From Actinomycetota bacterium (GTDB lineage Bacteria; Actinomycetota; Acidimicrobiia; Acidimicrobiales; AC-14): a stretch of 64,000 nucleotides of DNA. The position numbers and the translations under genes were made by a program. Shown here one piece after another: positions 38,351 through 55,510 of this stretch (the first letter of the stretch is position 1; each line of letters starts with the position of its first letter). The stretch is taken from positions 62,001 to 126,000 of the forward strand of contig JBFMCT010000004.1 in the NCBI GenBank assembly GCA_040754375.1, read 5' to 3'. The notes under the pieces are model-generated. The model made no database searches. It worked only from the letters and a program-made list of their open reading frames with translations, and was not told the origin of the DNA.

Positions 38351-38668
38351 CGGCCGCGGGTAACCAACGCGATTTCCCCAGGCTGGCGGCCTAGCGATCC
38401 CCAGGAACGGGCCCCTACGGTGGCCCTCGCCGTGCCCGCCCCGCCTGCAAACCTTCGCGAACGGGGTCTGACCAGCAGTGTTGCAACTGCGGGAACGTTG
38501 ACTCCGGACCATTGACACGGCTGAAATTACGCAGTTGTATTGTAAGCTCATCTCGTAGGTCGTTCGGCCTCCGACCACAACATCTTGTGCCTTGGCGCCC
38601 TGTCCCCGGGGGTGGCGGCCAGGATGGCCGGTGTGGAGGCAACCCCAGACGTCGCAGGAGGCGCAGCC
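38351..38668 (+). promoter_or_regulatory. nrdJ upstream region
   Basis: 318 bases without a gene. TTGACA (38512-38517) followed after 17 bases by TTGTAT (38535-38540) is the best promoter. CAACTGCG (38484-38491) and CGCAGTTG (38530-38537) are an 8-base inverted repeat flanking the -35 element, a possible operator for NrdR or another regulator. A ribosome site AGGAGG (38656-38661) sits 7 bases before the chosen start. No cobalamin riboswitch core was recognised. Confidence 0.55.
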
Positions 38669-41600
38669 ATGGCCATGGCCCCGGAAAAGGCAGGGATCGG
38701 ACTCCGCCGGCACTTCACGGTCGAAGGTGTCGACCCCTACGAGCGGGGTGCCGGTTACCGCCTCGACTGGGAGCGGCGCGACGCCCGCATCACCAACTAC
38801 CGCGACGGCTCGGTGGCCTTCGAGCAGCGTGATGTCGAGTTCCCCGTGCCCTGGTCGCAGAACGCCACCAACATCGTGGCCCAGAAGTACTTCCGGGGGT
38901 CGCTGGGCTCGCCCGAGCGGGAGCGCTCGCTGCGCCAGGTGGTCGACCGGGTGGTCGAGACCATCGCCGCCTGGGGCGAGAAGGGCGGCTACTTCGTCGA
39001 CGGGGCCGAGGCCGACGCCTTCCGAGCCGAGCTGAAGCACCTGGTCGTCACCCAGAAGGCGGCCTTCAACTCGCCCGTGTGGTTCAACATCGGGGTGGCC
39101 GGGGAGCCCCAGCAGGCGTCGGCCTGCCAGCCGTGGCACGCCCTGGTCAGCACGCCCGAGGGCCTGGTCCCCATCGGGGCACTGGTCGAGCAGGGCGCGG
39201 TGGGGGCCAAGGTGTGCGACGCCCACGGCCTCACCAGCGTCGTGGCCGTCAAGGCCAACGGCCGCAAGACCGTCCTGCGCCTGCACACGTCGGCCGGCTA
39301 CGTGCTCGACGTCACCGGCGACCACCTCGTGTGGCGGGCCCGGCCGGGCGAGGCCGGGAGCTCCGGGGGCGAGTTCGTCCCCGCCCGCCAGATCACCCGG
39401 GGCGACCTGCTGGAGTGGCACCAGGCCGAGTCGTGGGGCAACGGCCAGATCACCCGGGAGGCGGTGGCCGAGGCCGGCTTGGCCGGCTGGGTCCAGGCCG
39501 GTGGCTTCGTGGTCGACGTCGGGGGCAAGGGCGTGGCCGGTGGCCAGGTGGCCGTCTCAGGCGAGGCTGAGGAGACGTGGCTCCGGCAGTCCCTGGCTGC
39601 CGCCCTTCCCGGCGTACGTGCCGAGAGGGCGGCCCACGGTGGCCGGCTCCCGGGCGTGCCCGGCGCTCGCCTGCGCCTCGAGGGCACCGGGCTGGCGCCG
39701 TTCGTGCAGCGCTGGGGCCTGGCCCGCCAGGGTGTCGAGGCCACCGTTCCCGACGAGCTGTTCAACGCCCCGCTGCCGGTGGCCGCCGGCTACCTGCGCA
39801 GCCTGTTCCAGGCCGAGGGCTGGGTGTCCGACACCGGGTCGGTCATCGGCCTGGCCATGGTGTCCGAGGCCCTCGTGCGGGGGGCCCAGTCCCTCCTGCT
39901 GCGCTTCGGCATCTTCTCCCGGGTGCGCCGGGTGGCCGAGCAGAGGGCCGGCGGCAACCTCTTCTGGGTGCTCAACGTGTCGGTGGGCTCCGACGGGCGC
40001 CGCTTCGCCGACGAGATCGGCTTCATCGGCCCCGACCGCACCCGCGAGCTGGAGGCCGCCCTGGCCAAGGCCGCTCCCGGCGGCGGGCGCAACACGGCCG
40101 TGCGTACGGTCGAGGTCGAGTCGGTGGAGGTGCTGGGCGAGACCGAGGTCTACGACATCCAGACCGAGAGCGGCGAGTACCTGAGCGGCAACCTCCGGGT
40201 GCACAACTGCTTCATCCTGGCCGTCGACGACACCATGCGGTCGATCCTCAACTGGTACGTCGAGGAGGGCACGATCTTCAAGGGGGGCTCGGGGGCCGGC
40301 ATCAACCTGTCCAACATCCGGTCGTCGAAGGAGACCCTCAAGGGAGGAGGCCTGGCCTCCGGCCCCGTGAGCTTCATGCGAGGCGCCGACGCCTCTGCGG
40401 GCACGATCAAGTGCCTGGGTGCGGGCACTCCCGTGGTCACCGACCGGGGCGTCATCGCCATCGAAGACACGGTGGCCGGCGACCAGGTCCTCACGCGGTT
40501 CGGCTTCCGCCCCGTCGACGCCGTCCACGCCAACGGCACCCGCCCCCTCGTGCGGGTGCAGACGGCGCTGGGCGACGAGGTCCTCTGCACGCCCGAGCAC
40601 CGCTTCTGGGTGCGGGGCCGCGATGGGGAGGGTTGGAGAGAGGCCCGCTTCCTGCGCCCTGACGACCACGTCCTGGTCGACGTGGGCGGGGCCGAGCGGG
40701 GCCGGCTGCAGCCCCTGGCCCGCCCCGGGGCGGCGACGGGCGCCGGGGCCGAGGGAGACGGGGGTGGGGCCGGTGTCGAGCTGCCCACCCACCTCGACGA
40801 GGCGTTCGCCATGTGGCTGGGCTGGGCCCACGGTGAGGGCCCGGCCCCATCCCGGTCGGGGGCCAAGTTCGTGGCTGTGCAGATCGGCGGCGACGACCCC
40901 GAGGTCGTGGCTCGCTACACGGACCTGACCCGGGCCGTGTTCGGCCCGGGCGTGCACATCCACGCCGAGCGCCACCCCGACCCGGGCGACGGTCCGGGCG
41001 ACCACTCGGTGTGCGTGCGCTTCGCCTCTGCGGCGGTCAACGCCTTCCTGGAGGCCAACGGCCTCCGCCGGGAGGCCAACGGTGAGCCCAGGGTGCCGGC
41101 CGTCGTCCAGGCCTCGCCGGCCACGGCCCGGGCCGCCTTCCTGTCCGGCCTCTTCGAGGCCGACGGCCACGTCGGCAACGGCTACGCCTGGATGTCGGCG
41201 CCGACCCTGACCATGGCCCAGGACGTGCACCGCCTGCTGCTGTCGCTCGGCATCCCGTCGACGATCGGGGCCCTCGACGACCGCGGCGCCCACGGCCGGC
41301 GGCTGCCGTACACGGTCAGGGTGGTGGGCCGTGAGGGGATGCGCCGGTTCGCCAAGCAGGTCGGCTTCGTGTCCCACCGCAAGCACCAGCGCCTCGAAGC
41401 GGCCGTCGCCGGTGGGGACGCCAGCCCCTACGAGACCCAGTGGTCCCTGCCTCACACCCGGGCCGAGATCGACCGGTTGTGGGCGGGAACGGGCAACGCC
41501 GCCCTGCGCCGGGCTCTGGCCCCTTACCGCCGCGCCGGCAATCCCCGGCGGATCAGCCTCCTGCGGGCGCGCGCCCTGCTCGACCGGTTCCCCGACGAGC

Positions 41601-44600
41601 TGGCCTCGACCAGGTTGGCCCGTTTCGCCTACGGGGACGAGCTCTTCGCTCCCGTCACCGTCGAGCCCGCGGGCGAGGGCCCCACCTTCGACCTGACCGT
41701 CGCTGGGGTGCACGAGTACCTCGTCAACAACCTGGTCACCCACAACTCGGGGGGCAAGACCCGGCGGGCGGCCAAGATGGTGATCCTCAACGCCGACCAC
41801 CCCGACGTCGAGGACTTCATCTGGTGCAAGGCGGTCGAGGAGCGCAAGGCCCGCGTGCTGCGCGACGCCGGGTTCGACATGGACCTCGACGGCCGTGACA
41901 GCCACTCCACCCAATACCAGAACGCCAACAACTCGGTGCGGGTAACCGACGAGTTCATGCAGGCCGTCGTCGACGACCGCGACTGGCACATGCGGGCCGT
42001 GACCACGGGGGACACGGTGCGCACCCTGCGGGCGCGCGACCTGTTCCGCCAGATCGCCGAGGCGGCCTGGGAGTGCGCCGACCCGGGCATGCAGTTCGAC
42101 ACGACCATCAACCGGTGGCACACGGCGTCCAACACGGGGCGCATCAACGGGTCCAACCCGTGCTTCCCGGGCGACCAGCTGGTCCACACCGACAAGGGCC
42201 TGGTCCGCTTCTCCGAGCTGTTCGACCGGGCCCGCGAGGGTGAGTCGTTCGGGGTCTACACCCACGACGCCACCAACCCCGACGCCCCCGCCCAGCGGGT
42301 GGTGGTCACCCGGCCCGAGGCCTTCATGGTCACGGGGGTCAACGAGATCGTGCGCCTGCGCTTCGCCAACGGGGCCGAGCTGAGGTGCACCCCCAACCAC
42401 TCCCTTTTCACGACCAACCGGGGCTGGGTGGCGGCCGCCGAGCTGACGGCCGACGACCGCGTGCGCCTGCTCGACGTGCCCGCCCCGGCCACCGGGGCCG
42501 ACTCCCGCCTGCCCGCGCCCGCGGGCGTGGCCCTGACGGCGGCCGTGCCCGAGAAGTGGTCACCCGAGCTGGCCCACTACCTGGGGTGGCTGGTGGGCAA
42601 CGGCTCGCTCACCGGCGAGGTGGCCACCACCGCCTACGGGCGGGGCGACGGCCAGGCCGACGCCCTCTCCCGCCACTTCGACCTGCTGGGTGGGATCGGC
42701 GGCGACAGGCCGGCGGCGCCCGCCATCGAGGCCGACGGCACCGTCCGGCTGCGCCAGAGCAGCCGGGTGCTGGCTCGCTTGCTGCAGTCCCTGGGCGCCG
42801 GCCCGGGCACGGCCGACGCCACCGTGCCGTGGTCGGTCGAGCAGGCCCCCGGCGAAGTCGTGCTCGCTTTCCTGACCGGGCTGTTCGAGTCGACGGGCCA
42901 GGCGGGTGGGGCCGGCGAGCGGGCCTCGATGACCTCGACCTCGGCCGAGCTGCTCCGCGGTGCCCAGAGGTTGCTGTCCACGCTGGGCCTGGCCTCGTCG
43001 GTCCAGGGCGGGGAGCTGACCGTTGCGGCCACCGGCCGGCTCGACGACCTGGCGGCCCGAGCCGGGGCGGCCGGGGCCGCGCCCGGCGAGACGCGGCTCG
43101 TCTCGCGCGACGACGACGGTGTCGAGCTCACCTACAACCTGTCCGAGCCCCGCAACCACTCCTACGTGGTGGGCGGGTTCGTGGTCCGCAACTGCTCGGA
43201 GTACATGCACCTCGACAACTCGGCCTGCAACCTGGCCAGCCTCAACCTGCTCAAGTTCCTCGACGACCAGGGCGACTTCGACGTCGAGGGGTTCAAGCAG
43301 GCCGTCGAGGTGGTTTTCACCGCCCAGGAGATCCTGGTCGGCAACGCCGACTACCCGACCGAGAGGATCGCCGAGACGTCGCGGCGGTTCCGCCAACTGG
43401 GCCTGGGCTACGCCAACCTGGGTGCCATGCTCATGGCTCTCGGGCTGCCTTATGACTCCGACGAGGGCCGGGCATGGGCCGGTTCGATCACCGCCCTCAT
43501 GACCGGTCACGCCTACGCCACGTCGTCGCGCATCGCCTCGCGCATGGGACCGTTCGCCGGCTACAGCGACAACACCGAGCCCATGAACCGGGTCCTGCGC
43601 CAGCACCGCGATGCCACCCACGAGATCGACCGGTCCAAGGTGCCCGGGGAGCTGCTGGCCGCCGCCCAGGACGCGTGGGACACGGCCGTCGAGCTGTGTG
43701 ACTGGTTCGGGGTGCGCAACTCCCAGGCCACCGTGCTCGCCCCCACGGGGACGATCGGGCTCATGATGGACTGCGACACCACCGGTATCGAGCCCGACCT
43801 CGGCCTGTGCAAGACCAAGAAGCTGGTGGGCGGGGGCACGATGTCGATCGTCAACCAGACGGTGCCCCGGGCGTTGCGCCGGCTCGGCTACGACGAGGGC
43901 CAGGTGGCCGACATCATCGCTTACATCGACGAGCACAAGTCGATCGTGGGCGCCCCCCACCTGGCGGCCGAGCACCTGGCCGTGTTCGCCTGTTCGATGG
44001 GCGACAACGTGATCCACTACTCGGGCCACGTGCGCATGATGGGGGCGGCTCAGCCGTTCATCAGCGGGGCCATCTCCAAGACCATCAACACCCCCGAGGA
44101 CACCTCGGTCACCGAGATCGAGCAGCTCCACATCGACGCCTGGCGGCTGGGCCTCAAGGCGGTGGCCATCTACCGCGACAACTGCAAGGTGGCCCAGCCC
44201 CTGTCGACCACCAAGAAGGCCTCGCTCTCCGAGCCCGTCGAGAAGCTGGTGGCCACGGTGGTGCGCGAGCCCGTCCGCGAGAAGCTGCCCCGGCGGCGCA
44301 ACTCCAAGACGTTCTCGTTCCGGGTGGCCGACTGCCACGGCTATGTGACCGTCGGGGAGTACGACGACGGCCGCCCCGGGGAGATCTTCCTCAAGGTGGC
44401 CAAGCAGGGCTCGACCCTGGCCGGCATCATGGACGCCTTCGCCATCTCGGTGAGCCACGGCTTGCAGTACGGCGTGCCCCTCAAGGCCTTCATCGACATG
44501 TACACCAACATGCGCTTCGAGCCCGCGGGCATGACCGACGACCCCGACCTGCGCTTCGCCAGCTCCCTGGTCGACTACATCTTCCGCCGCCTGGCCGTCG

Positions 44601-44911
44601 AGTACCTCGACCTCGAGGAGCGTTCCGAGCTCGGCATCCTCACCGTGGGCGAGCGCATGCAGCCCACCCTGCCCGGTGTGGAGGAGTCGGCCACCCCGTC
44701 CTCGACGGGCAGCGACGTCGTGCCCGACCCCGCCCCCACGCCCGTCGCCCGGGCCGCAGCCCCGCCTGCCCCGGCCACGGTCACCGCGCCGGCCCAGCCC
44801 CAGGCCGCGGCCTCCGACGCGCCCTACTGCTACCAGTGCGGCATGGTCATGCAACGAGCCGGCGCCTGCTTCGTCTGCTCCAGCTGCGGCACCACCAGCG
44901 GCTGCTCGTGA
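38669..44911 (+). CDS. nrdJ: Adenosylcobalamin-dependent (class II) ribonucleotide reductase precursor with three inteins
   Basis: 2080 residues as translated. Inteins of 361, 445 and 344 residues are removed to leave about 930 residues, normal for actinobacterial NrdJ, which makes deoxyribonucleotides using coenzyme B12. Extein landmarks: FNSPVWFNIGV, CFILAVDDTM, GGSGAGINLSNIRSSKE, RGADASAGTIK joined to SGGKTRRAAKM, GSNP joined to CSEYMHLDNSACNLASLNLL (active-site N-C-E), and APTGTIGLMMDCDTTGIEP. A C-terminal zinc ribbon (CYQCG and CSSCGTTSGC) is present. ATG at 38669 has AGGAGG 7 bases upstream; in-frame codons at 38585 and 38624 lack good sites. All three inteins interrupt invariant active-site segments. 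Confidence 0.95.
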   Translation: MAMAPEKAGIGLRRHFTVEGVDPYERGAGYRLDWERRDARITNYRDGSVAFEQRDVEFPVPWSQNATNIVAQKYFRGSLGSPERERSLRQVVDRVVETIAAWGEKGGYFVDGAEADAFRAELKHLVVTQKAAFNSPVWFNIGVAGEPQQASACQPWHALVSTPEGLVPIGALVEQGAVGAKVCDAHGLTSVVAVKANGRKTVLRLHTSAGYVLDVTGDHLVWRARPGEAGSSGGEFVPARQITRGDLLEWHQAESWGNGQITREAVAEAGLAGWVQAGGFVVDVGGKGVAGGQVAVSGEAEETWLRQSLAAALPGVRAERAAHGGRLPGVPGARLRLEGTGLAPFVQRWGLARQGVEATVPDELFNAPLPVAAGYLRSLFQAEGWVSDTGSVIGLAMVSEALVRGAQSLLLRFGIFSRVRRVAEQRAGGNLFWVLNVSVGSDGRRFADEIGFIGPDRTRELEAALAKAAPGGGRNTAVRTVEVESVEVLGETEVYDIQTESGEYLSGNLRVHNCFILAVDDTMRSILNWYVEEGTIFKGGSGAGINLSNIRSSKETLKGGGLASGPVSFMRGADASAGTIKCLGAGTPVVTDRGVIAIEDTVAGDQVLTRFGFRPVDAVHANGTRPLVRVQTALGDEVLCTPEHRFWVRGRDGEGWREARFLRPDDHVLVDVGGAERGRLQPLARPGAATGAGAEGDGGGAGVELPTHLDEAFAMWLGWAHGEGPAPSRSGAKFVAVQIGGDDPEVVARYTDLTRAVFGPGVHIHAERHPDPGDGPGDHSVCVRFASAAVNAFLEANGLRREANGEPRVPAVVQASPATARAAFLSGLFEADGHVGNGYAWMSAPTLTMAQDVHRLLLSLGIPSTIGALDDRGAHGRRLPYTVRVVGREGMRRFAKQVGFVSHRKHQRLEAAVAGGDASPYETQWSLPHTRAEIDRLWAGTGNAALRRALAPYRRAGNPRRISLLRARALLDRFPDELASTRLARFAYGDELFAPVTVEPAGEGPTFDLTVAGVHEYLVNNLVTHNSGGKTRRAAKMVILNADHPDVEDFIWCKAVEERKARVLRDAGFDMDLDGRDSHSTQYQNANNSVRVTDEFMQAVVDDRDWHMRAVTTGDTVRTLRARDLFRQIAEAAWECADPGMQFDTTINRWHTASNTGRINGSNPCFPGDQLVHTDKGLVRFSELFDRAREGESFGVYTHDATNPDAPAQRVVVTRPEAFMVTGVNEIVRLRFANGAELRCTPNHSLFTTNRGWVAAAELTADDRVRLLDVPAPATGADSRLPAPAGVALTAAVPEKWSPELAHYLGWLVGNGSLTGEVATTAYGRGDGQADALSRHFDLLGGIGGDRPAAPAIEADGTVRLRQSSRVLARLLQSLGAGPGTADATVPWSVEQAPGEVVLAFLTGLFESTGQAGGAGERASMTSTSAELLRGAQRLLSTLGLASSVQGGELTVAATGRLDDLAARAGAAGAAPGETRLVSRDDDGVELTYNLSEPRNHSYVVGGFVVRNCSEYMHLDNSACNLASLNLLKFLDDQGDFDVEGFKQAVEVVFTAQEILVGNADYPTERIAETSRRFRQLGLGYANLGAMLMALGLPYDSDEGRAWAGSITALMTGHAYATSSRIASRMGPFAGYSDNTEPMNRVLRQHRDATHEIDRSKVPGELLAAAQDAWDTAVELCDWFGVRNSQATVLAPTGTIGLMMDCDTTGIEPDLGLCKTKKLVGGGTMSIVNQTVPRALRRLGYDEGQVADIIAYIDEHKSIVGAPHLAAEHLAVFACSMGDNVIHYSGHVRMMGAAQPFISGAISKTINTPEDTSVTEIEQLHIDAWRLGLKAVAIYRDNCKVAQPLSTTKKASLSEPVEKLVATVVREPVREKLPRRRNSKTFSFRVADCHGYVTVGEYDDGRPGEIFLKVAKQGSTLAGIMDAFAISVSHGLQYGVPLKAFIDMYTNMRFEPAGMTDDPDLRFASSLVDYIFRRLAVEYLDLEERSELGILTVGERMQPTLPGVEESATPSSTGSDVVPDPAPTPVARAAAPPAPATVTAPAQPQAAASDAPYCYQCGMVMQRAGACFVCSSCGTTSGCS
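39125..40207 (+). other. NrdJ intein 1
   Basis: Residues 153-513 (361 aa). It starts at Cys of CQPWHALVSTPEG and ends NLRVHN, with +1 Cys of CFILAVDD; the flanking exteins rejoin as QQASA-CFIL. Block B is DVTGDHLVW. The first endonuclease motif reads LAGWVQAGG, with Gly278 in place of the catalytic acid; the second, LRSLFQAEG, keeps Glu383. The endonuclease is therefore probably inactive, while splicing residues are intact. Confidence 0.92.
40412..41746 (+). other. NrdJ intein 2 with apparently intact homing endonuclease
   Basis: Residues 582-1026 (445 aa), from Cys of CLGAGTPVVTDRG to NNLVTHN, with +1 Ser of SGGKTRRAA. Block B is CTPEHRFWV. Both LAGLIDADG motifs keep an acid: MWLGWAHGEG (Glu723) and LSGLFEADG (Asp832). 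It is the largest of the four inteins here and the only one with both acids, so it may still be mobile. Confidence 0.92.
42161..43192 (+). other. NrdJ intein 3 with decayed endonuclease and non-His penultimate residue
   Basis: Residues 1165-1508 (344 aa), from Cys of CFPGDQLVHTDKG to GGFVVRN, with +1 Cys of CSEYMHL. Block B TPNHSLFT is intact. Both endonuclease acids are lost: LGWLVGNG has Asn1311 and LTGLFESTG has Thr1409. The penultimate residue is Arg, not the usual His, which in other inteins assists Asn cyclisation. It sits directly before the catalytic Cys of the NPCSE motif. Confidence 0.92.
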
Positions 44912-44977: not shown

Positions 44978-47900
44978 TTAGAGAGGGAAGTGGTCGGCGT
45001 AGACGATGCGGTCCTCGAAGCCGGGGTTGTCCAGGCCGAGGGGGTCGGCGGGGAGCCGTTCCCACTCCTCGATCGTGACCCGCCAGTCAGAGCCCTGGCC
45101 CGGGGTCCGGGCCGCGATCGCGACGGGCAGGTCGAGCTGGCCTGACCAGGTGACCACGGAGCCGGCGGCCCCGAGGATGGGCAGGACCTGCTTGGCCACC
45201 GTGACCCAACCCAGGTCGGTCGTGACCGCCGGGCCCAGGCGCTCGAGCCGGGCCACCACCACCCGGGTGAGGGCCACGGTGGCCATGAACCCGCCGCCCG
45301 CGACCGTGCTGGGCACGGACACCCGCGGCACCCCGACGGGGCCGGTCACGATGACGCGGACGTGGCGGTCGTCGGGACGGGTCAGGGTGGCCGTGCGCTC
45401 GGGGGTCAGCTGGGCGTAGTCGCAGATGTGCACGGGCCCCAGGTGCAGGCCGGGCAGGGAACTGGGCTGGTAGCGGGCGACGGCCAGCTTCACGAACGGC
45501 CAGAAGGCGGTGGCCGGGTCGAAGGCGATGTCGACGAACCACAGGCTGCGGTCGACCGAGAACTCGGGCCGGTACCCCAGCACCAGTGCGGTCGGCTTGC
45601 CGGTCACGTCGACCAGGGGAAGCTTGACCGGGCCCCCGACCGGGCGACCGGGTAGCTCGCGGTCGTCGAGCCCCGTCAGATGGAGCAGGTCGACGAGCGG
45701 CAGGGCGGACCGTGAGGCCGGGCCCTGCTGGAGCCATACCGGGTCGCCGGCCCACTGGCTGACCGTGGACTGCACGGCCGCGTCGTTGGACGGCGACAGC
45801 ACCACGCCCAGCAGTTCGCCGTTGCCCGTCATGTACCACGGCCGGTCGAGGTAGACGCGCAAGCCCGCCCGGCGGGACCGGCGCAGGCCGAAGGGCTGGG
45901 CCGGCTCGGTGCGCTCGTCCCACCGGAACAGGGGCAGCACGTCGCGCACGATCACCTTGGCCGGCCGGGCGCTGTTGGGCACGTCCAGCCTCCGCACCGG
46001 GCCGACCACCGAGAGGTCGGCCGGCGACGGCGTGACCTGGGGCGAGAAGTACTCCCGGTAGCGGGTCGTGGCCCGCACCGAGTAGTCGACGTCGCGGTGG
46101 CGGGTATCGCCCAACTGGTGCACCGCCTGGTGCAGCCGCACCGTCGTCCCGCCCAGCGTCACGGTCCCGTCGTTGGCCGCCAGCACGGCCAGGTCCTCGT
46201 CGTAGGACACGTCGCTCCCGAAGGCCACGGCCACGGCCGTGACCTGCTCGGGCTCGGGCTTGGACACGTCGTCCACCCACTCGGTCCACGTGGCCTCCAT
46301 GTCGATGCGCCCGGTGCTCGGGCCGTGGAGGTCGACGGCCCCGAACAGCGTCACTGCCGTGTCGCCCTCGGCCCTCAGCGGCACGAGCACGGTGGGCCGG
46401 GGGACCTCGACGGGCCGGGGCACGGCGTGGACCAGCCGCACCTCGGCCGCGGGTGTCAACCACCAGAACCATCCGTCGGCGGCCGCCTCGGCCAGCAGGG
46501 CGTTGGCCTGGGCGGCGGCCGGCAGTGAACGCCACAGGCCCAGGAGCTCGAGCGAGGCCCGGTCCAGGCAGGACGACACCCGCATCCGCAGGTGCTCCCC
46601 GGGGGGGAGGGTCATGCGCACCACGTGGCCGTCCACCTCGGCCCCCAGTTCGTCACCGCCCGCCAGGGCCAGCCGCAGCGGGGTCGGCGACGGCCACCCT
46701 CCCGGGTAACGCACGGTCGTGCCCTCCAGGGCCAGGAGGCCCTTGAGCAGGTGGTCGCGGCCGGCGTCGGGGAACATGAACGACACCCCGGCAGCCAGCG
46801 GGTCGGGCAGGTAAGGCAGCACCAGCTCGTCGACGTCGTGCACGACGTACTGCCCGGGCGCGGGCGCCTCACCCCGTGGAAGGTCGGCGGGTGTGGCCAC
46901 GTCGGGGACGTCGGCGGTGGGCGCGACGACGAACCTCACGCCCGGCTGGGCGAGGCGCTGGCCGGGGTTCGCCAGGTCGGCCACCGTCACGTCCAAGAAC
47001 GTGCCCGACTCCCGCAGGGCCACGGCCAGCGCGGCCCGCACGGCGGCTGCCGAACCGCTGCCCATGGCGGCGTCGAACCGGCCGTGCAACTCGGCTTCGA
47101 ACTGGCTGGTCTTGGGCGGCGCCAGGTGGCGCTGGCTGTCCTCGCGCCACTGCAGGTCGAGGCCGGGGAAGGCGGCCACGGTCTGTGCCGCGAACTCCGC
47201 CGGGGGCACGACCGTCAGGTCCATGTCCCCCGGGGAGGCCTGCTCGACCCCTGAGCGGACCACCAGACGCAGGAGCGACTCGCCTTCGGTGTAGGGATGG
47301 CGGGCGACGGTGGCCGGCTCGACCACCGGGCCCCACCGCAGGAACGGGCGGGGAGTGGTTACCAGCGTCCCGACCAGGGCGAGGAAGGCGCCCGGGCCCA
47401 GCCCGGCCCCCGGACGGCCCGGACGGCCCGGACGGCCGGGGCGTTCGGGGGTGACAGCGCTCAGGAGGTCTCGCTGGCCGGCGGCCAGCGAGGTCACGGC
47501 CGCGGCGTACACGCCCGGGGCCGTCTGCACGTCGGTGCGGCGCAGCAGATGGGGGGACTCCTGGGCGGTGGCCGCGAAGGTGGTCTCGATCCGGCCCTGG
47601 CGTCCCGGCCCGGCCGCGAACGCGGCCCCGCCCCGGTCGGCCAGCCGGCGGGCGACGAGCTGGTCGACCTCGGCCACGCCGGTGACCTTGACCGCGTCGG
47701 GGTCGACCCCGGGCGCGCCCCGTCTGGGCGCCGGGCCCTCGACGGGGGCGGGCCGCAGCACCGCCAAGCCGTCGCGCACCGCCTCGATGGGCACGGGCGA
47801 GTCCTCCAGGGCGGCGGCCACCGTCGCCTCTGGGGCCTTGGACGCCAAGAGCCGTTCGGCGTGGCCGGTGGCCGCCTTCTCGTCGAACGGAACCCGTGCC

Positions 47901-49630
47901 TTCGCCGGCCTGGGGCCGCTCGGGGGCTGGTCGCCGACGGGCGCCACACCCCCGGCCACCTCGTGGGGGGGCGAGTTGCCGGCCAGGTCGGCGGCGTAAG
48001 CCCGAAAGGCGTAGCGCCGCCCGTAACGCAGCGGCGGTAGGGAGCCGGGCATCACCACGCCCGAGCTGGCCACCGGGTTGACGGGCGACGGGTCGGGAGG
48101 TGGCTCGGCCAGCACCTTCTCCTCGCCGCCGTCGTGGACGACCACGTTCCCCGGGCGGGGGGCAGCCAGCGACCAGCCCTCCCAGCCGGCCAACACCTCG
48201 TGGGCGTGCTTGGGCGCGCCCGGCAGGCCGTCGGCCTGGGACAGCGCCGCCCCTTGGAGAAAGCCGGTGTCGGGTACGCCGTCGAGCACCTGTCCCGCGC
48301 CCTCGACGTCGACCGTCAGCAGCCGCTGGTGCAGGGAACGCCATTGGCCGCTCACGTCGTCCCACACCTCGAGGCGGATGCCCCGGCTCACCTGCTCCAG
48401 CGTGAGGGGCGCGGCCGTGCCGGCCATGAGGTCGGCGTCTTTGGCCGCGGCCCCGTCCAAGCGGCCGTGCAGGGACGCGGCCCGGTCGGCCCGGGCTACG
48501 GCGAACCCCGTGGCCCGCAGCTCCCCGGGGGCGGAGTTCTCGGCGTCCCCGTTGTTCTCGGCGGCTGCCAGCCGGGGCAGGGTGCGGACGTACTGCTCGA
48601 GCTTCAGGCCCGACGCGTCGGGGTCGAGGTCGAGGACGGTGAACCGGTCCTCGTCGCCCAGGCGCAGCATGGCCACCTCGAAGTCCCCCGACGACGACAC
48701 GGTGGTGAAGCTCGGGCCCATCACCCGGCAGGAGACCCTGGGCTGGCTGGTCACGGGGTTGGCCAGGCCCCTGACCACTATGTCGCCCTGGGCCCACACC
48801 AGCCCGGCCAGCAGGTCGAGGTTGTCGACCCGCAGGTCCACGACCAGGCCCAGCCGGCGCAGCAACGGCGACAGGTCGCCGATCATGCCCGCCCGCGCGT
48901 GGAAGTCAGGGTCGGGCTTCTTCACGGGTAGGGCCACGGCCGCCGGGTCGGGCCGCTCCCGGTAGAGGTGCTGTTCCTCGGGCCGCTGGTAGTAGCGGCG
49001 GGCCAGTTCGACGTCGCCCACCAGCCGGGCCAGCGGGGACGCGGCCGACGAGCCGGCCGTGACGTTAAGCCCGGCGCCGACCAGGCGATCGACGTTCTTG
49101 GCCACTATGGCGTCGACCCGGCCGTCGATGACCATCTCCAGAGGGAGCTCGCGCCGGTCGAGGCCCAACGTGGCCAGCAGGGCGCCGGCGATCACGTTGG
49201 CGGTCACGGTCGGCGGGACGACGGGGGAGGACAGGAGCGAGCCCGCGTGCACGAGCAGGGCGTGCTGCTGCATGCGGTGGGCCGGGAAGGTGCGCCACGG
49301 GACGGCCGTGTGGTCGGGGACCTTCCAGGGCCGTACTGGGAGGTCGGCCGGGAAGACACGAGGCCACAGGCCGGGGTCGAGCGACCCCAGTAGGGGGGTG
49401 ACGGGGATGTCGACCACCGTCCCGTCGGCTCGGCCGCCCCGCAGGCGGAAGGCGGGCGGGGGGGTGGCGGCCAGCAAGGCTGCCCAGGCCCGCACGTGGG
49501 GGAAGTCGCCGACTACGCCCTGGGCGCCGTCGGGGGTCAGCCGGTGACTGACGAAGAACGAGACGTGGAAGGGCTCGGCGGTCGAGGCCGAGTAGGGCAG
49601 GGCCGTGACCAGGAACGACTCGGTGGCCAT
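44978..49630 (-). CDS. Giant hypothetical protein (1550 aa)
   Basis: 1550 residues; I do not recognise a family. No signal peptide or membrane helix is evident. The sequence is rich in beta-type segments with ordered domains throughout. Visible parts: an N-terminal alpha/beta region (LVTALPYSASTAEPFHVSFFVSHRL); a middle with a fibronectin-like strand pattern (LPPLRYGRRYAFRAYAADLAGN, near residue 530); a tandem RPGRPGRPG linker from a 9-base repeat at 47410-47436; and a C-terminal portion with MTGNGELLGVVLSP and WFVDIAFDPATAFWPFVKLAVARYQ. It starts 3 bases after the stop of the 1268-residue gene, so both form one operon. A structural or surface-assembly role is conceivable but unproven. Confidence 0.72.
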   Translation of the reverse strand: MATESFLVTALPYSASTAEPFHVSFFVSHRLTPDGAQGVVGDFPHVRAWAALLAATPPPAFRLRGGRADGTVVDIPVTPLLGSLDPGLWPRVFPADLPVRPWKVPDHTAVPWRTFPAHRMQQHALLVHAGSLLSSPVVPPTVTANVIAGALLATLGLDRRELPLEMVIDGRVDAIVAKNVDRLVGAGLNVTAGSSAASPLARLVGDVELARRYYQRPEEQHLYRERPDPAAVALPVKKPDPDFHARAGMIGDLSPLLRRLGLVVDLRVDNLDLLAGLVWAQGDIVVRGLANPVTSQPRVSCRVMGPSFTTVSSSGDFEVAMLRLGDEDRFTVLDLDPDASGLKLEQYVRTLPRLAAAENNGDAENSAPGELRATGFAVARADRAASLHGRLDGAAAKDADLMAGTAAPLTLEQVSRGIRLEVWDDVSGQWRSLHQRLLTVDVEGAGQVLDGVPDTGFLQGAALSQADGLPGAPKHAHEVLAGWEGWSLAAPRPGNVVVHDGGEEKVLAEPPPDPSPVNPVASSGVVMPGSLPPLRYGRRYAFRAYAADLAGNSPPHEVAGGVAPVGDQPPSGPRPAKARVPFDEKAATGHAERLLASKAPEATVAAALEDSPVPIEAVRDGLAVLRPAPVEGPAPRRGAPGVDPDAVKVTGVAEVDQLVARRLADRGGAAFAAGPGRQGRIETTFAATAQESPHLLRRTDVQTAPGVYAAAVTSLAAGQRDLLSAVTPERPGRPGRPGRPGAGLGPGAFLALVGTLVTTPRPFLRWGPVVEPATVARHPYTEGESLLRLVVRSGVEQASPGDMDLTVVPPAEFAAQTVAAFPGLDLQWREDSQRHLAPPKTSQFEAELHGRFDAAMGSGSAAAVRAALAVALRESGTFLDVTVADLANPGQRLAQPGVRFVVAPTADVPDVATPADLPRGEAPAPGQYVVHDVDELVLPYLPDPLAAGVSFMFPDAGRDHLLKGLLALEGTTVRYPGGWPSPTPLRLALAGGDELGAEVDGHVVRMTLPPGEHLRMRVSSCLDRASLELLGLWRSLPAAAQANALLAEAAADGWFWWLTPAAEVRLVHAVPRPVEVPRPTVLVPLRAEGDTAVTLFGAVDLHGPSTGRIDMEATWTEWVDDVSKPEPEQVTAVAVAFGSDVSYDEDLAVLAANDGTVTLGGTTVRLHQAVHQLGDTRHRDVDYSVRATTRYREYFSPQVTPSPADLSVVGPVRRLDVPNSARPAKVIVRDVLPLFRWDERTEPAQPFGLRRSRRAGLRVYLDRPWYMTGNGELLGVVLSPSNDAAVQSTVSQWAGDPVWLQQGPASRSALPLVDLLHLTGLDDRELPGRPVGGPVKLPLVDVTGKPTALVLGYRPEFSVDRSLWFVDIAFDPATAFWPFVKLAVARYQPSSLPGLHLGPVHICDYAQLTPERTATLTRPDDRHVRVIVTGPVGVPRVSVPSTVAGGGFMATVALTRVVVARLERLGPAVTTDLGWVTVAKQVLPILGAAGSVVTWSGQLDLPVAIAARTPGQGSDWRVTIEEWERLPADPLGLDNPGFEDRIVYADHFPL

Positions 49631-49633
49631 CGG

Positions 49634-52600
49634 TCACACCCCTCCGAAGGCGGCGCAGTACTGGGCCCACGCCGGCGAGCTGCCGTCAGCCAGGACGCCG
49701 ATCTGCTGCTCGAAGGTCGGGTCGCCGTTGGACCCGGCCAGCCGCCGTTCACACGACACCGACACCGAGAACGAGAAGAAGAAGATCTCGACCTCTATGG
49801 TGATCGATGCCCGGCCGACCATCTTGCCGGTGCCGAACTCGTAGGTCAGCGACAGTTCCAGGGTGATCGACGCCGAGATCAGGCCCAGGACGTCGACCTC
49901 GCCCCGGATCCGGAAGTAGCCCGTGAGGCTGCCGGCCTCCCCCTCCAGGCGGAGGTACAAGCCGACCATGACCGACACCGAACCACTGGCCACGCCCAGG
50001 TTGACGGACAAGCAGGCGCCCGCCTCCAGCGCCATCTCCAGCAGGACCAGGCCCTTGGGTGACAGCCGGATCCCCACGAACCCGCCGCCGCCGATCATCA
50101 TCACCGTCAGGCGGAACGGCTTGTCCCGTGTGCAGAAGTGGAACCCGATGGTGAGGGCTTCGTCGCCCAGGAACGGCACCCGGGCGTCGGCGCCCAGGCT
50201 GACGTTCTCCAGGGTGAAGACCCCGACGGCCACGCCCGGCAGGGCCACGTCGAACCCGGCCACCACCCCGTCGGCGCTCACGTCGAGGTAAGGCGGGTCG
50301 GAGAAGGCGTCGAAGGGGATCAGCCGCTTGAGCGTCTCGATGAAGCCGAGGACGCCCACGAACTCGATCCCGTTGAAGACCACGTCGACTTCGGGCTTGC
50401 GCCCCGACGCCGCCCGGAAGGCGATCCGGTCGAAGGCCAGCCGCATCAGGGGTGCGCCCGGGAGGAGGTTGAGGGCGAACTGGCGCAGTTCGGCCAGGAC
50501 GTCCACGCCCACCCCGTCGGCGCCCGACGCCCGGGCCTCGACCGACAGCAGGAAGCCGTCGGGCCGCACGACGAACAAGGCGTCGCCGTCGGCCACGTCG
50601 GGGAAGTTGGTGAGGGTCGGCCTCCAGTCGAACTTGGCTCGCACCGACAGGCCGGCGGGGTCGATGCCGTTGACGAACTGGGCGATGCGGTCGATCGTGG
50701 CCGCCATCTCGGCTGCGTCCAGTACGGGCTGGAGGGCGTTGACCAGCCGCTCCAGCGCAGCCTTGACGGGCGCCGGCATGGGCGTGTCCCGCACGGTCCC
50801 AGCGAGGGCCGTGACCACGCCCGCCAGGGTGCCGAGGGCGCCCGACACGGCGGCCGTCACGTCCGCCACCGACGACGGCGTCTCCAGGTCGAGGAGGTCG
50901 CCCACCTTGCCGACCAGCTCGTCGGCCGCGCTCTCCAGTTGGGCGCGGACGGCGTCGATGGCCGCCCGGGCGGCGGACGCCTGGTCCCGTAGTGGCTGGG
51001 TGGCGGCCGTGAGCGCATCGTCGGCCAGCCGGTCGACGCTGCGGGCCACCACGGCCTTGAGCTCCTCGACGTCGGCCAGCAGGGCGGCGATGCGGTCGAG
51101 CTGGTCGGTGACGAACGACGGCGCCCCGTCGAGGCCGACGGCCTTGAGGATGTCGGTCAGCTTGAACAGCCCGAACAGCTTGGGCAGCACGCCGTCGAGG
51201 AACTTGGTGGGGTTGAACTTCTGGCCCGCCGGCTGGTTGACGATGTCGTCGATCTCTCCCACCGCGCCCAGCGCCCGGGAGAGGCCTCGCACCGGCAGGT
51301 CGGGCTGGACGAACCCGCCCGCCCTGTCGGTGCCACCGCCGAACTCGATCTTGGCGGCGGTGGCCAGGGCCAGGAAGACCTGGGCCTCGGCGTTGGCGCC
51401 TGCGAACCCGGCGCTGAGGTAGGGGGCGGCGTAGGAGACGGTGGTGGCCGGCGCGGCCGGGGCCAGGTGGCGCATGGCGGGCACGACCACCTCGGCGTCC
51501 TCCAGCGACGGGGTGGAGGTCAGTTGGCCGGGGGCGCCGGGTTCGCCCACGAACCGCAGCACCGCCGTCTCGAACGACGTGTCCCCCGCTTTGGTCGGCG
51601 CCGCGTAGGCCACCGCCTGGCCGTGGGCGGCGATGGACCGCTCGGGGGCGCTGCGGTAGGTGTTCTTGATGACGGTGGCGGTGAGGGCGCCCTTGGGCAG
51701 CTCGGCGGCCACGAACAGCAGCGGCGCCTGCACCCGCACCCTACGGCCCGCATGGTCGGTGCCGTCGAGCGTGAAGGCGAACCTGCCGGTCGCCGGGATG
51801 GTCGGCCAGAACAGCAACTCGCCGCCCGGCGAGTTCGGCCCCGGTGGCTCGGGGTCGGCGATGTCGGGTGTCACCAGGGGCCGGATGGACACCTGGCGGA
51901 AGGGCATGCGGCGGTCGTCGAACGTGCGCACGGGCTGGCCGACGACGATGAACTTGCGCTGGTACAGGTAGGCCTGGGGGCTGGACGGCTCGAGGATCTT
52001 GCGCTCGGTCACCTTGACCAGCGAGGCCCGGAACCCGAAAGGGAACAGGTAACCGGGGTAGACGACCTGCACGTACTGGTCCCGGCCCATCGGAGCCTCG
52101 TGGTCCCACGACTCGATCGTCCCGAGCTGGTGGGGCGGCTGGGCGTAGGGCTCGATGTCCCACCGGCCGTGGAGGTCGAGGTAGGCACCCAGCGAGGACA
52201 GGTACAGCCGCTTGACATCGGCCGGCTCCGGCGGGGCGATCTGGGGATCGGCCGTCTGGCGGACGAGGATCACCCGGTCGCGCGGGTTGAGCGACATGCG
52301 GAACGGGGACTCGCCCGTCGGGGGGTCGGTGCCGGGCGCCAGGAGCTCCTTGTCGCGCGCCCAGACGGCCCGGACGATCCTCTGCGGATGGCGGCTCTCG
52401 TCGACGGTCACCGAGCCGTCGTCGGGGTCGACCCGTCGTACACCGAGGCGGCTGTGCCACAGCTCGACCCGTTCGGGACCGGCGGGCGCCGAGACGGCGG
52501 CCGGCGAGTGGGCGAACCCCCCGAGGTCGCTGGGCGAGAGGACGAGCCGGAACGGGGCTTCGATGGCTGTCTGCTCGCTGGTGGGGACCGTGGGCCGCCG

Positions 52601-53440
52601 GCGGACGGGTGGCCGCTTGACGGGCGGCACCAGCAGGTCGCCGAAGCCCCGCTGCAGCCGGGCCCCCTTCTGGGGTTGGCGGGCGACGGGCGCGCGGGCC
52701 GGGGCCCGGTCGGAGACGTTGATGGCCGTCTCTTCGGACAGGACGGTCCGGGCGGTGCGCAACGCGGTGGCGGTGGCGAGGACGGCGGCCACGCCCGCGG
52801 GCTTGGCCGCCGCTTGGGTGCGGGCCCGCTTGGTGCCCCGGGAAGGCCCAGCCGCCGGCCCGGCCATCACGACCAGCACGCCCTCGACGGTGCGGGCCAG
52901 CACCAGGCCGCCGGGGAGGGCGGTGATGGGGACGGCCGCCTTCAGGCCGGCGACAGCGGCGCGGGGTGTGGCCAGCGGGGCCACCAGGAGCGGCAGGCGC
53001 GCCATGGCGGCCAGGACGCCGCCGATGCTGTAGTCGACGCGTTCGCCCGCGGGTACGGCGTAGACGAGGCGGGAGCCCCGGGCCGCGAGGGCCTCGACGG
53101 GCGGTGGGCCGGGGGGCTCGGCCACCGGGTTGGGCGGCACCGGCTCGACCCGGAAGAAGGCCCGCTCGCCGAGATGCTGGAAGGGGTAACGGACCTCGAG
53201 GCGGCCGCCGGTGCCGGCCGGTACCAACGCCGGGCCTTGGGGCCCTGCGACCAGGGTGAGGTCCCACCCGGTGACCCCCAGCACGACCAGGTCGTCGGGG
53301 CGCAGCACCCGGAAATGGTGGGTGGCTGTCGAGGCCGGTTCCGGCGCCAGGACGAGGTGCTGCGGGTCGGGGTCGAACCGCAGGGCGCGTCCTTGACGGG
53401 GACGCCGCTGCCGCCTCGAGGCCCTGTCGTCAGCCGCCAT
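49634..53440 (-). CDS. Giant hypothetical protein (1268 aa) with beta-rich C-terminus
   Basis: 1268 residues, no family recognised. A basic N-terminus (ADDRASRRQRRPRQGR) precedes a beta-rich region, then a Pro/Arg/Ala linker (about 205-290) and a second beta-rich region (about 300-640). A helical, probably coiled-coil stretch follows (about 775-905, e.g. QLDRIAALLADVEELKAVVA). The last ~340 residues are alternating hydrophobic beta-strands (VRAKFDWRPTLTNF, FTLENVSLGADARVPF, ASITIEVEIFFFSFSVSVSC), which look like an elongated amphipathic sheet. No signal peptide. It is first in the two-gene unit and leads into the 1550-residue gene with a 3-base gap. Function unknown. Confidence 0.72.
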   Translation of the reverse strand: MAADDRASRRQRRPRQGRALRFDPDPQHLVLAPEPASTATHHFRVLRPDDLVVLGVTGWDLTLVAGPQGPALVPAGTGGRLEVRYPFQHLGERAFFRVEPVPPNPVAEPPGPPPVEALAARGSRLVYAVPAGERVDYSIGGVLAAMARLPLLVAPLATPRAAVAGLKAAVPITALPGGLVLARTVEGVLVVMAGPAAGPSRGTKRARTQAAAKPAGVAAVLATATALRTARTVLSEETAINVSDRAPARAPVARQPQKGARLQRGFGDLLVPPVKRPPVRRRPTVPTSEQTAIEAPFRLVLSPSDLGGFAHSPAAVSAPAGPERVELWHSRLGVRRVDPDDGSVTVDESRHPQRIVRAVWARDKELLAPGTDPPTGESPFRMSLNPRDRVILVRQTADPQIAPPEPADVKRLYLSSLGAYLDLHGRWDIEPYAQPPHQLGTIESWDHEAPMGRDQYVQVVYPGYLFPFGFRASLVKVTERKILEPSSPQAYLYQRKFIVVGQPVRTFDDRRMPFRQVSIRPLVTPDIADPEPPGPNSPGGELLFWPTIPATGRFAFTLDGTDHAGRRVRVQAPLLFVAAELPKGALTATVIKNTYRSAPERSIAAHGQAVAYAAPTKAGDTSFETAVLRFVGEPGAPGQLTSTPSLEDAEVVVPAMRHLAPAAPATTVSYAAPYLSAGFAGANAEAQVFLALATAAKIEFGGGTDRAGGFVQPDLPVRGLSRALGAVGEIDDIVNQPAGQKFNPTKFLDGVLPKLFGLFKLTDILKAVGLDGAPSFVTDQLDRIAALLADVEELKAVVARSVDRLADDALTAATQPLRDQASAARAAIDAVRAQLESAADELVGKVGDLLDLETPSSVADVTAAVSGALGTLAGVVTALAGTVRDTPMPAPVKAALERLVNALQPVLDAAEMAATIDRIAQFVNGIDPAGLSVRAKFDWRPTLTNFPDVADGDALFVVRPDGFLLSVEARASGADGVGVDVLAELRQFALNLLPGAPLMRLAFDRIAFRAASGRKPEVDVVFNGIEFVGVLGFIETLKRLIPFDAFSDPPYLDVSADGVVAGFDVALPGVAVGVFTLENVSLGADARVPFLGDEALTIGFHFCTRDKPFRLTVMMIGGGGFVGIRLSPKGLVLLEMALEAGACLSVNLGVASGSVSVMVGLYLRLEGEAGSLTGYFRIRGEVDVLGLISASITLELSLTYEFGTGKMVGRASITIEVEIFFFSFSVSVSCERRLAGSNGDPTFEQQIGVLADGSSPAWAQYCAAFGGV

Positions 53441-53566
53441 ACGCCCTCCGCCCGTTGTTGCTGGGTCACGCTAACGCCGGCCTCGGCCGAGCGTCAACGG
53501 GTTGGACGGGGGTACGAACCAGGCATCCTGGGTAAGAACACAGCGCTCGCACAGAAGGGAGACATC

Positions 53567-53716
53567 GTGGGCCTAGTGGTCTTGCTACTCATCCTTGCGT
53601 TGCTGTTCGGAGGGGTCGGGCTTTTCGTCGAAGGCCTCAAATGGGCCCTCATCATCGCCCTCGCCCTCGTGATCGCGGGTGCGTTCACCGGTTACCGGGG
53701 CCGCGCCCGGGTCTGA
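53567..53716 (+). CDS. Very small membrane protein (49 aa)
   Basis: 49 residues: two hydrophobic helices (GLVVLLLILALLFGGVGLFV and KWALIIALALVIAGAFTGY) and a basic C-terminus RGRARV. GTG at 53567 is chosen because AAGGGAG lies six bases before it. Similar tiny two-helix hydrophobic proteins are common in actinobacteria, with no known function. The gene is divergent from the giant operon and is followed by a strong hairpin. Confidence 0.75.
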   Translation: MGLVVLLLILALLFGGVGLFVEGLKWALIIALALVIAGAFTGYRGRARV

Positions 53717-53795: not shown

Positions 53796-55022
53796 TCAGG
53801 CGGTCAACGAGGCCAGGCGCGCTTGGAGGAACCGCCGCTCGGCGTCGTTGGTGACCAAAGCGAGGGCTGAGGCGTAGGCCGCCGCGGCCTCCTCGTCGCG
53901 GCCCAGGCGGCGGAGCAGGTCGGCCCGGGCCGCGTGGAGCAGGTGGTAGCCGTCGAGGTCGAGGCTGTCCATGGCGGCCAGGCCGGCGTCGGGGCCGCGG
54001 GCTTCGGCTAGGGCCACGGCCCGGTTGAGGGCCACCACGGGCGTCGGGTGTACAGCCATCAACTGGTCGTAGAGGGCCACGATCTGGGGCCAGTCGGTGC
54101 CCGCCGCGGTGGCCGCGTCGCTGTGCACGGCTGCGATGGCGGCCTGCAACTGGTAGGGCCCGGGCTGGTTGCGGCGCAGGCACGCCCGCACCACGGCCTG
54201 GCCCTCGGCCACCATGGCCCGGTCCCATAGGGCCCGGTCCTGGTCGGCCAGCAGGACCAACGACCCGTCGGGAGCGGTGCGAGCCGGCCGCCGGGCGGCG
54301 GTCAGCAGGAGCAGGCCGAGCAGGCCGGCCACCTCGGGCTCGTCGGGCATGAGCCCGGCCAGCAGGCGGGCCAGGCGCAGGGCCTCGGCGCACAGGTCGT
54401 CGCGGACCAGTTCGGCACCCTCGCTGGCCGTGTACCCCTCGTTGAAGACCAGGTACACGACAGCCAGCACGGGCCGCAGCCGGTCGGGCAGCTCGGCGTC
54501 ACCGGGCACCCGGTAGGGGATGGCGGCGTCGCGGATCTTGCGCTTGGCCCGGACGAGGCGCTGGGCCATCGTCGGTTCGGGCACCAGGAAGGCCCGGGCG
54601 ATCTCGTGGGTCTGCAGGCCCCCGAGCAGGCGCAGGGTCAGCGCCACCTGGGCGGCGGGGGCCAGGGCCGGGTGGCAGCACGTGAAGATGAGCCGGAGGC
54701 GGTCGTCGTGCACGGGCCCTACCGGCTCCACCGGTCGGGACGACCCGGCGTGGTGGATGAGGGCGGCCTGGGCGTGGCGTTCGTCGCGGGACGACTCCCG
54801 GCGCAGCCGGTCGATGGCCCGGTTGCGGGCCGTGGTGACGATCCACCCGCCCGGGTTAGGCGGCACGCCGTCCTGGGGCCACCGGGTGACAGCCACCGCG
54901 AACGCCTCCTGGACCGCCTCCTCGGCGAGGTCGATGTCGCCGAAGAGGCGGACCAGGGTGGCCACCGCCCGCCCGAACTCGTGACGGAAGGTGGCCTCGA
55001 CGGCTTCGGGTACGACCGGCAC
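53796..55022 (-). CDS. ECF sigma factor of the ECF42-like group
   Basis: 408 residues, twice the size of ordinary ECF sigmas. Region 2 is in the N-terminus ([18 protein letters not shown] and [20 protein letters not shown] near 35-80). Region 4 is near 125-165 ([34 protein letters not shown]). A ~220-residue TPR-like C-terminal extension contains [11 protein letters not shown] and [20 protein letters not shown]. This pattern and the DGPF gene just upstream are the hallmark of ECF42; no anti-sigma gene is present. GTG start at 55022. The 37-base gap to the DGPF gene holds a tandem 12-base repeat (GGCCACGGTCAG units). Confidence 0.88.
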
Positions 55023-55059
55023 GCCCTGGCCCTGACCGTGGCCCTGACCGTGGCCGGGA

Positions 55060-55419
55060 CTAGTCCTCGGCGTCGTCCTGGAAAGGGCGCACCTCGACCG
55101 GGCCCTGGCAGGCGATGGCGCCCCGGGCGGCCAAGGCCAGGGCGGCGTCGAGGTCGGGGGCCTTCACGACCCAGAACCCGCCCAGCTGCTCCTTGGTCTC
55201 GGCGAAGGGCCCGTCGGTGGTGATCACGTCGCCGCCCGGCGTGGGCCGCACCACCGTGGCCGTGTCCGAGGGGTGGAGGCCGCCGGCGAACACCCACGCC
55301 CCGCTGGCCTTCAGCTCCTCGTTGAACACGTCGACGGCCTTGAACATCTCGGCCAGCGTCTCGGGCTCGGGCTCGGGGTCACCTTCGACCATGTGCACGG
55401 CCAGCAGGTACTGCTTCAT
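55060..55419 (-). CDS. YCII-related DGPF-domain protein
   Basis: 119 residues from ATG at 55419 (AAGGAG seven bases upstream). It contains the signature [20 protein letters not shown] near residue 66-85, placing it in the DGPF branch of the YCII family (dimeric alpha+beta barrel). Such proteins regularly accompany ECF42 sigma factors, are often part of the regulon and may help control it. It precedes the sigma-factor gene by 37 bases in the same operon. Confidence 0.9.
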
Positions 55420-55510
55420 GAGGATCTCCTTCCGCAACGGCCGGCACCGTACCGGCCCTACACCCCTTCTACGAACGGCCCCCGCCCCGATCGACAGCCT
55501 GGCAAGAAAA

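Follow-up and report, generated by a model that had tools for sequence, protein, structure and literature searches.

The E. coli system PaoABC, a Tat hitch-hiker, carries its export signal on one subunit, and the signal-less partner is encoded next door (PMC4273604). The same arrangement is seen in the Tat-bearing relatives of the gene pair described here, A and B, in which folding would likewise precede export. The pair differs from PaoABC in that its proteins (up to 3311 residues for A and 1899 for B) far exceed the 150 kDa given as the limit for Tat cargo (PMC6708511), that it matches no known family, and that A of the sequence studied here carries no signal. Campylobacter jejuni has two TatA paralogues (PMC4148689), and an additional tatA beside the housekeeping set is also found at loci of the pair, where, unlike in C. 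jejuni, it lies directly behind A and B in two distant hosts. Tat cargo is known to reach up to 150 kDa (PMC6708511). The giant β-rich DUF6603 proteins resemble the pair by eye, being large, glycine- and β-rich and of no known function, but homology between the two is undetectable by profile comparison. A gave no Pfam hit to DUF6603 (PF20248) at E ≤ 10, and alignment of its C-terminus against one DUF6603 protein with hhalign returned a probability of 0.4%, so that kinship with this family was rejected; a family search of G000 for DUF6603 found none.

The window, i.e. the whole stretch of 64,000 nucleotides that was analysed, contains A and B next to each other on the minus strand (Table 1), where the first-pass annotation had placed two adjacent giant genes of one operon, separated by 3 bases and not assignable to any family. 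The junction reads GGAGGG-GTG-TGA-CCG-ATG, in which TGA is the stop codon of A and ATG the start codon of B, so that the ribosome-binding site of B (GGAGGG) lies inside the 3′ end of A, indicating translational coupling of the two genes. The start of A is likewise preceded by GGAGGG just 5′ of its ATG. With a GC content at codon positions 1, 2 and 3 of 0.74, 0.51 and 0.94 for A and 0.77, 0.52 and 0.94 for B, both genes display the strong actinobacterial codon bias of typical coding sequence. Furthermore, they are not chance open reading frames, since homologues with ∼25–56% identity, mostly intact, are present in many genomes. The tail-to-tail neighbour of the pair is a ribonucleotide reductase gene (window 38585–44911, plus strand; 2108 aa), which apparently contains three intein insertions, as judged by eye from HN/C borders. 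The pair is directly preceded by an ECF sigma factor gene with DUF6596 (53796–55022), which adjoins a YCII-domain gene (together 53796–55437, minus strand), a common actinobacterial couple. Between them and A, a reading frame for a small hydrophobic protein that is not TatA-like runs divergently on the plus strand (∼53540–53716).

Table 1. Position of the gene pair in the window and segments of protein A.
Feature	Window position	Strand	Description
Gene A	49634..53440	-	1268 aa; upstream gene of the pair
Gene B	44978..49630	-	1550 aa; downstream gene of the pair
Gap between A stop and B start	49631..49633	-	3 bases
A residues 1-289	52574..53440	-	N-terminal part, variable; begins with low-complexity basic sequence (MAADDRASRRQRRPRQGRALRF)
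A residues 290-759	51164..52573	-	Conserved core; invariant G452-R453-D454, R480, D562
A residues 760-930	50651..51163	-	Amphipathic helical, coiled-coil-like; β/α hydrophobic-moment ratio 0.45
A residues 1081-1240	49721..50200	-	Amphipathic β meander, invariant GGGG (1117-1120); moment ratio 2.60

The lack of an assignable family was borne out, since searches of Pfam, PHROGs, NCBIfam, PADLOC and PDB sequences yielded nothing above noise, either with A and B of the window or with profiles of the A and B alignments. In the PDB, sequence and profile searches returned only coiled-coil chance matches and lipase hits at E∼0.7, the profile hits of A being confined to chance matches of its helical segment to coiled coils. 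PADLOC-DB profiles matched neither the window's proteins nor A and B of S. meliloti, and no PHROG matched A or B. One relative with a proline-rich start matches an extensin low-complexity model. In literature searches no description of the pair was found. A and B are a real, conserved and undescribed two-gene system, whose novelty lies in the two protein families and their pairing, and no proven new mechanism is claimed. We give an even chance to the reading that the pair constitutes an undescribed, self-contained giant assembly of non-enzymatic nature, which would be exported by Tat in the signal-bearing relatives and would stay in the cytoplasm in the lineage of the window.

That A and B belong together is practically beyond doubt. 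In all 39 loci examined B lies directly downstream of A, in the same order and on the same strand, with small gaps or overlaps, so that the linkage on which the first-pass annotation had staked its proposal recurs in other genomes. Pairwise distances of A and B are correlated with r = 0.94 over 33 loci, compared with a maximum of 0.31 in 1000 permutations. Split pairs occur in a few loci at contig ends, frameshifts or extra open reading frames (L051, L058, L049, L048, L078), and fragments that stand alone in Ensifer (L064), Bradyrhizobium (L061), Paraburkholderia (L059) and Rhizobium Pop5 (L099) seem to be remnants. An all-against-all comparison of the flanks ruled out a third conserved partner, as no neighbour family appeared in more than a few loci. 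The flanking genes vary from a tRNA ligase and cysteine synthase through to conjugation genes, and most copies stand among housekeeping genes. The suggested check for linkage with type VII or contractile injection systems was negative, with no sheath, baseplate or ESX gene among the annotated or called genes of the flanks examined. An unassigned gene near A is common to a Streptomyces and a Rhizobium plasmid (L054:12348–13325 and L060:11634–12461), with ∼29% identity and no Pfam family. On one IMG/VR contig a third gene without Pfam match lies behind B (L049:13667–14401), with a twin-arginine start and a lysozyme-like appearance by eye.

The regular segments of A stand out when amphipathic moments are averaged over the alignment. 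The coiled coil followed by a β region that had been read from the single sequence is strong on this basis, the β pattern extending also to residues 930–1080 (moment ratio 1.81). For residues 1081–1240 the β moment is 1.311, compared with 0.640 in 500 shuffles (sd 0.086, maximum 0.913). The helical segment is absent in some actinobacterial relatives and much enlarged in rhizobial A, in which the β C-terminus is kept; since some actinobacterial A proteins do without the helical part, the β module is the part of A that stays constant. The amphipathic nature of the sheet hints at contact with membranes or lipids, and the proposal of an elongated sheet or lipid-binding groove is a guess, the structure models having a pLDDT of 37 and 33. 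A lipid-handling or storage assembly, in which the sheet of A would form a hydrophobic groove or line lipid droplets and would reside in the cytoplasm or the envelope depending on the signal peptide, would account for the strong one-sided hydrophobic β pattern and for the lipid-acting genes near some loci, namely patatin in L030 and L051 and PAP2 in L026. Such neighbours are not conserved, however, and the weak Foldseek matches to lipid transfer proteins and porins (E > 0.001, from a poor model) were disregarded and carry no weight, so that we regard this explanation as quite unlikely. The reading of a non-enzymatic assembly draws on the composition of the conserved positions. Among the 46 invariant columns of A, 19 are glycine and only R453, D454, R480 and D562 are charged, the remainder being mostly proline and hydrophobic, and this make-up speaks for a structural rather than a catalytic role.

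B shows no pattern of regularity comparable to the amphipathic segments of A. It contains more invariant polar residues than A, among them several His, Asp and Glu, so that B may be an enzyme. The AlphaFold models of the A core (979 aa; pLDDT 37) and of B residues 351–1550 (pLDDT 33), calculated from shallow alignments of 6 and 5 sequences, respectively, were discarded.

At the N-terminal end of A, where the window's protein has its variable basic start, sister lineages carry Tat signals, and SRRxFL-type twin-arginine motifs followed by a hydrophobic stretch can be read by eye in many relatives. With one rule applied to all proteins, which was home-made rather than SignalP and met uncertain start codons in some loci, a Tat signal was called in 15 of 33 A proteins, none of 33 B proteins and 13 of 503 background open reading frames, a set that includes spurious ones (Fisher p = 5e-13). 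A of G803 adds one more signal, giving 16 of 39 A proteins, and only two changes of the Tat state are needed on the A tree. Judged from these N-termini, Tat targeting of the signal-bearing relatives is very probable. In two of the Tat-bearing loci, L055 (S. meliloti pC) and L047 (G111), whose hosts are distant from each other, a tatA gene follows directly behind B at ∼40–50 bases, its product matching Pfam PF02416 above the curated cut-off. The tatA of L047 is an extra copy, since two further TatA/B genes are present elsewhere in G111. Because only these two loci have it, tatA was rejected as a general partner of the pair. The genome of the window encodes three TatA/B proteins, none near the pair. 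A of the window lacks an RRxFL motif with hydrophobic stretch at its start, and with only 10 open codons upstream of the ATG a hidden in-frame signal is impossible, so a cytoplasmic location of this pair is reasonably probable. The first-pass description of the pair as export-independent is therefore upheld for the window's A, but does not extend to the family, given the signals of its relatives and the two loci with tatA.

We have a slight leaning towards B hitch-hiking on the Tat-signalled A proteins, by analogy with known Tat hitch-hikers. In rhizobia, Agrobacterium and Ruegeria the long A proteins comprise 3043–3311 residues and their intact B partners 1766–1899, which, if exported together, would lie far beyond 150 kDa (PMC6708511). 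In the proposed assembly A and B, produced together, most likely associate into one large, mainly β, non-enzymatic complex, with A providing a helical stalk and an amphipathic β sheet and B a long body; the large-assembly character noted at first sight is supported. The assembly would fold in the cytoplasm, from where the folded A–B complex would probably be exported by Tat in ∼40% of the relatives, with B as the hitch-hiker and sometimes with the help of the pair's own TatA. In the lineage of the window the signal is absent and the assembly would probably remain cytoplasmic, unless another release route is used. In either location its role would be structural rather than catalytic, and for any particular biochemical role our confidence is low. 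That A and B form a giant two-subunit assembly of a new class, moved whole through Tat with a dedicated TatA in the Tat-bearing lineages, is a tentative and rather doubtful extension; if it is true, the rhizobial cargo of ∼3000–3300 plus 1800–1900 residues would be several times 150 kDa and would redefine the size of folded Tat cargo. If the Tat-bearing members are exported whole, few known folded cargos would match them in size, and a natural substrate that comes with a TatA of its own would allow the size limit of Tat to be tested. Furthermore, natural pairs with and without signal offer a way to test the effect of moving the same assembly across a membrane.

The distribution of the pair is patchy, spans phyla and is often plasmid-borne. 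Relatives of A were found in 4 of 99 near-relative genomes, the window's own included, in 7 of 296 genomes within the class and, across the phylum, in 9 of 296 genomes in one search and 14 of 396 in another; the B profile matched in 6 of 198 genomes within the order, and three Micropruina genomes carry the pair. Among 72,556 plasmid records 14–15 match, with hosts including Streptomyces, Cupriavidus metallidurans, Diaphorobacter, Rhizobium, Sinorhizobium, Ruegeria and Agrobacterium vitis. The 39 loci are distributed over actinobacteria, proteobacteria and two unclassified contigs of a viral collection (IMG/VR). Although these two contigs carry the pair, a phage origin was rejected, as none of 50,697 phage genomes searched gave a match. 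On the A tree the clade of the window (12 rows, 100% support) contains Cupriavidus, Diaphorobacter and Rhizobium alongside actinobacteria, indicating that the pair has crossed phyla. Thus, two large families without detectable relatives form a fixed pair in ∼3–4% of the sampled genomes of the phylum and on proteobacterial plasmids, and a widespread bacterial system has apparently gone undescribed.

Patchy spread of this kind, together with the frequent plasmid location and the amphipathic β region of A, would also fit a two-part toxin or antagonism system, with the β region inserting into membranes as a pore and B either binding the target or bearing a toxic part. Some loci lie near DNA-modification or conflict genes: in one rhizobial plasmid copy (L056:1–13019) genes for an N-6 methylase, a UvrD-type helicase and a PD-(D/E)XK nuclease adjoin, in another (L058:29699–36825) the DNA-modification genes dpdE-H, and GASH/EAD1 genes are located near the copy in L059. 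A toxin is nevertheless unlikely, as no immunity gene shows conserved linkage to the pair, no toxin family matches, the C-terminus of A is conserved rather than polymorphic, and the cytoplasmic versions without Tat signal would require another release route. The same rhizobial neighbourhoods and the patchy occurrence could point to an anti-phage defence pair, which we consider very unlikely, since PADLOC gave no match, most copies lie among housekeeping genes, and Tat export would take the pair out of the cytoplasm, the site of most defence systems. A far more divergent A–B-like pair, with A apparently frameshifted, was found in G291 (L082:7455–16295), a hint that the superfamily extends beyond the loci sampled.
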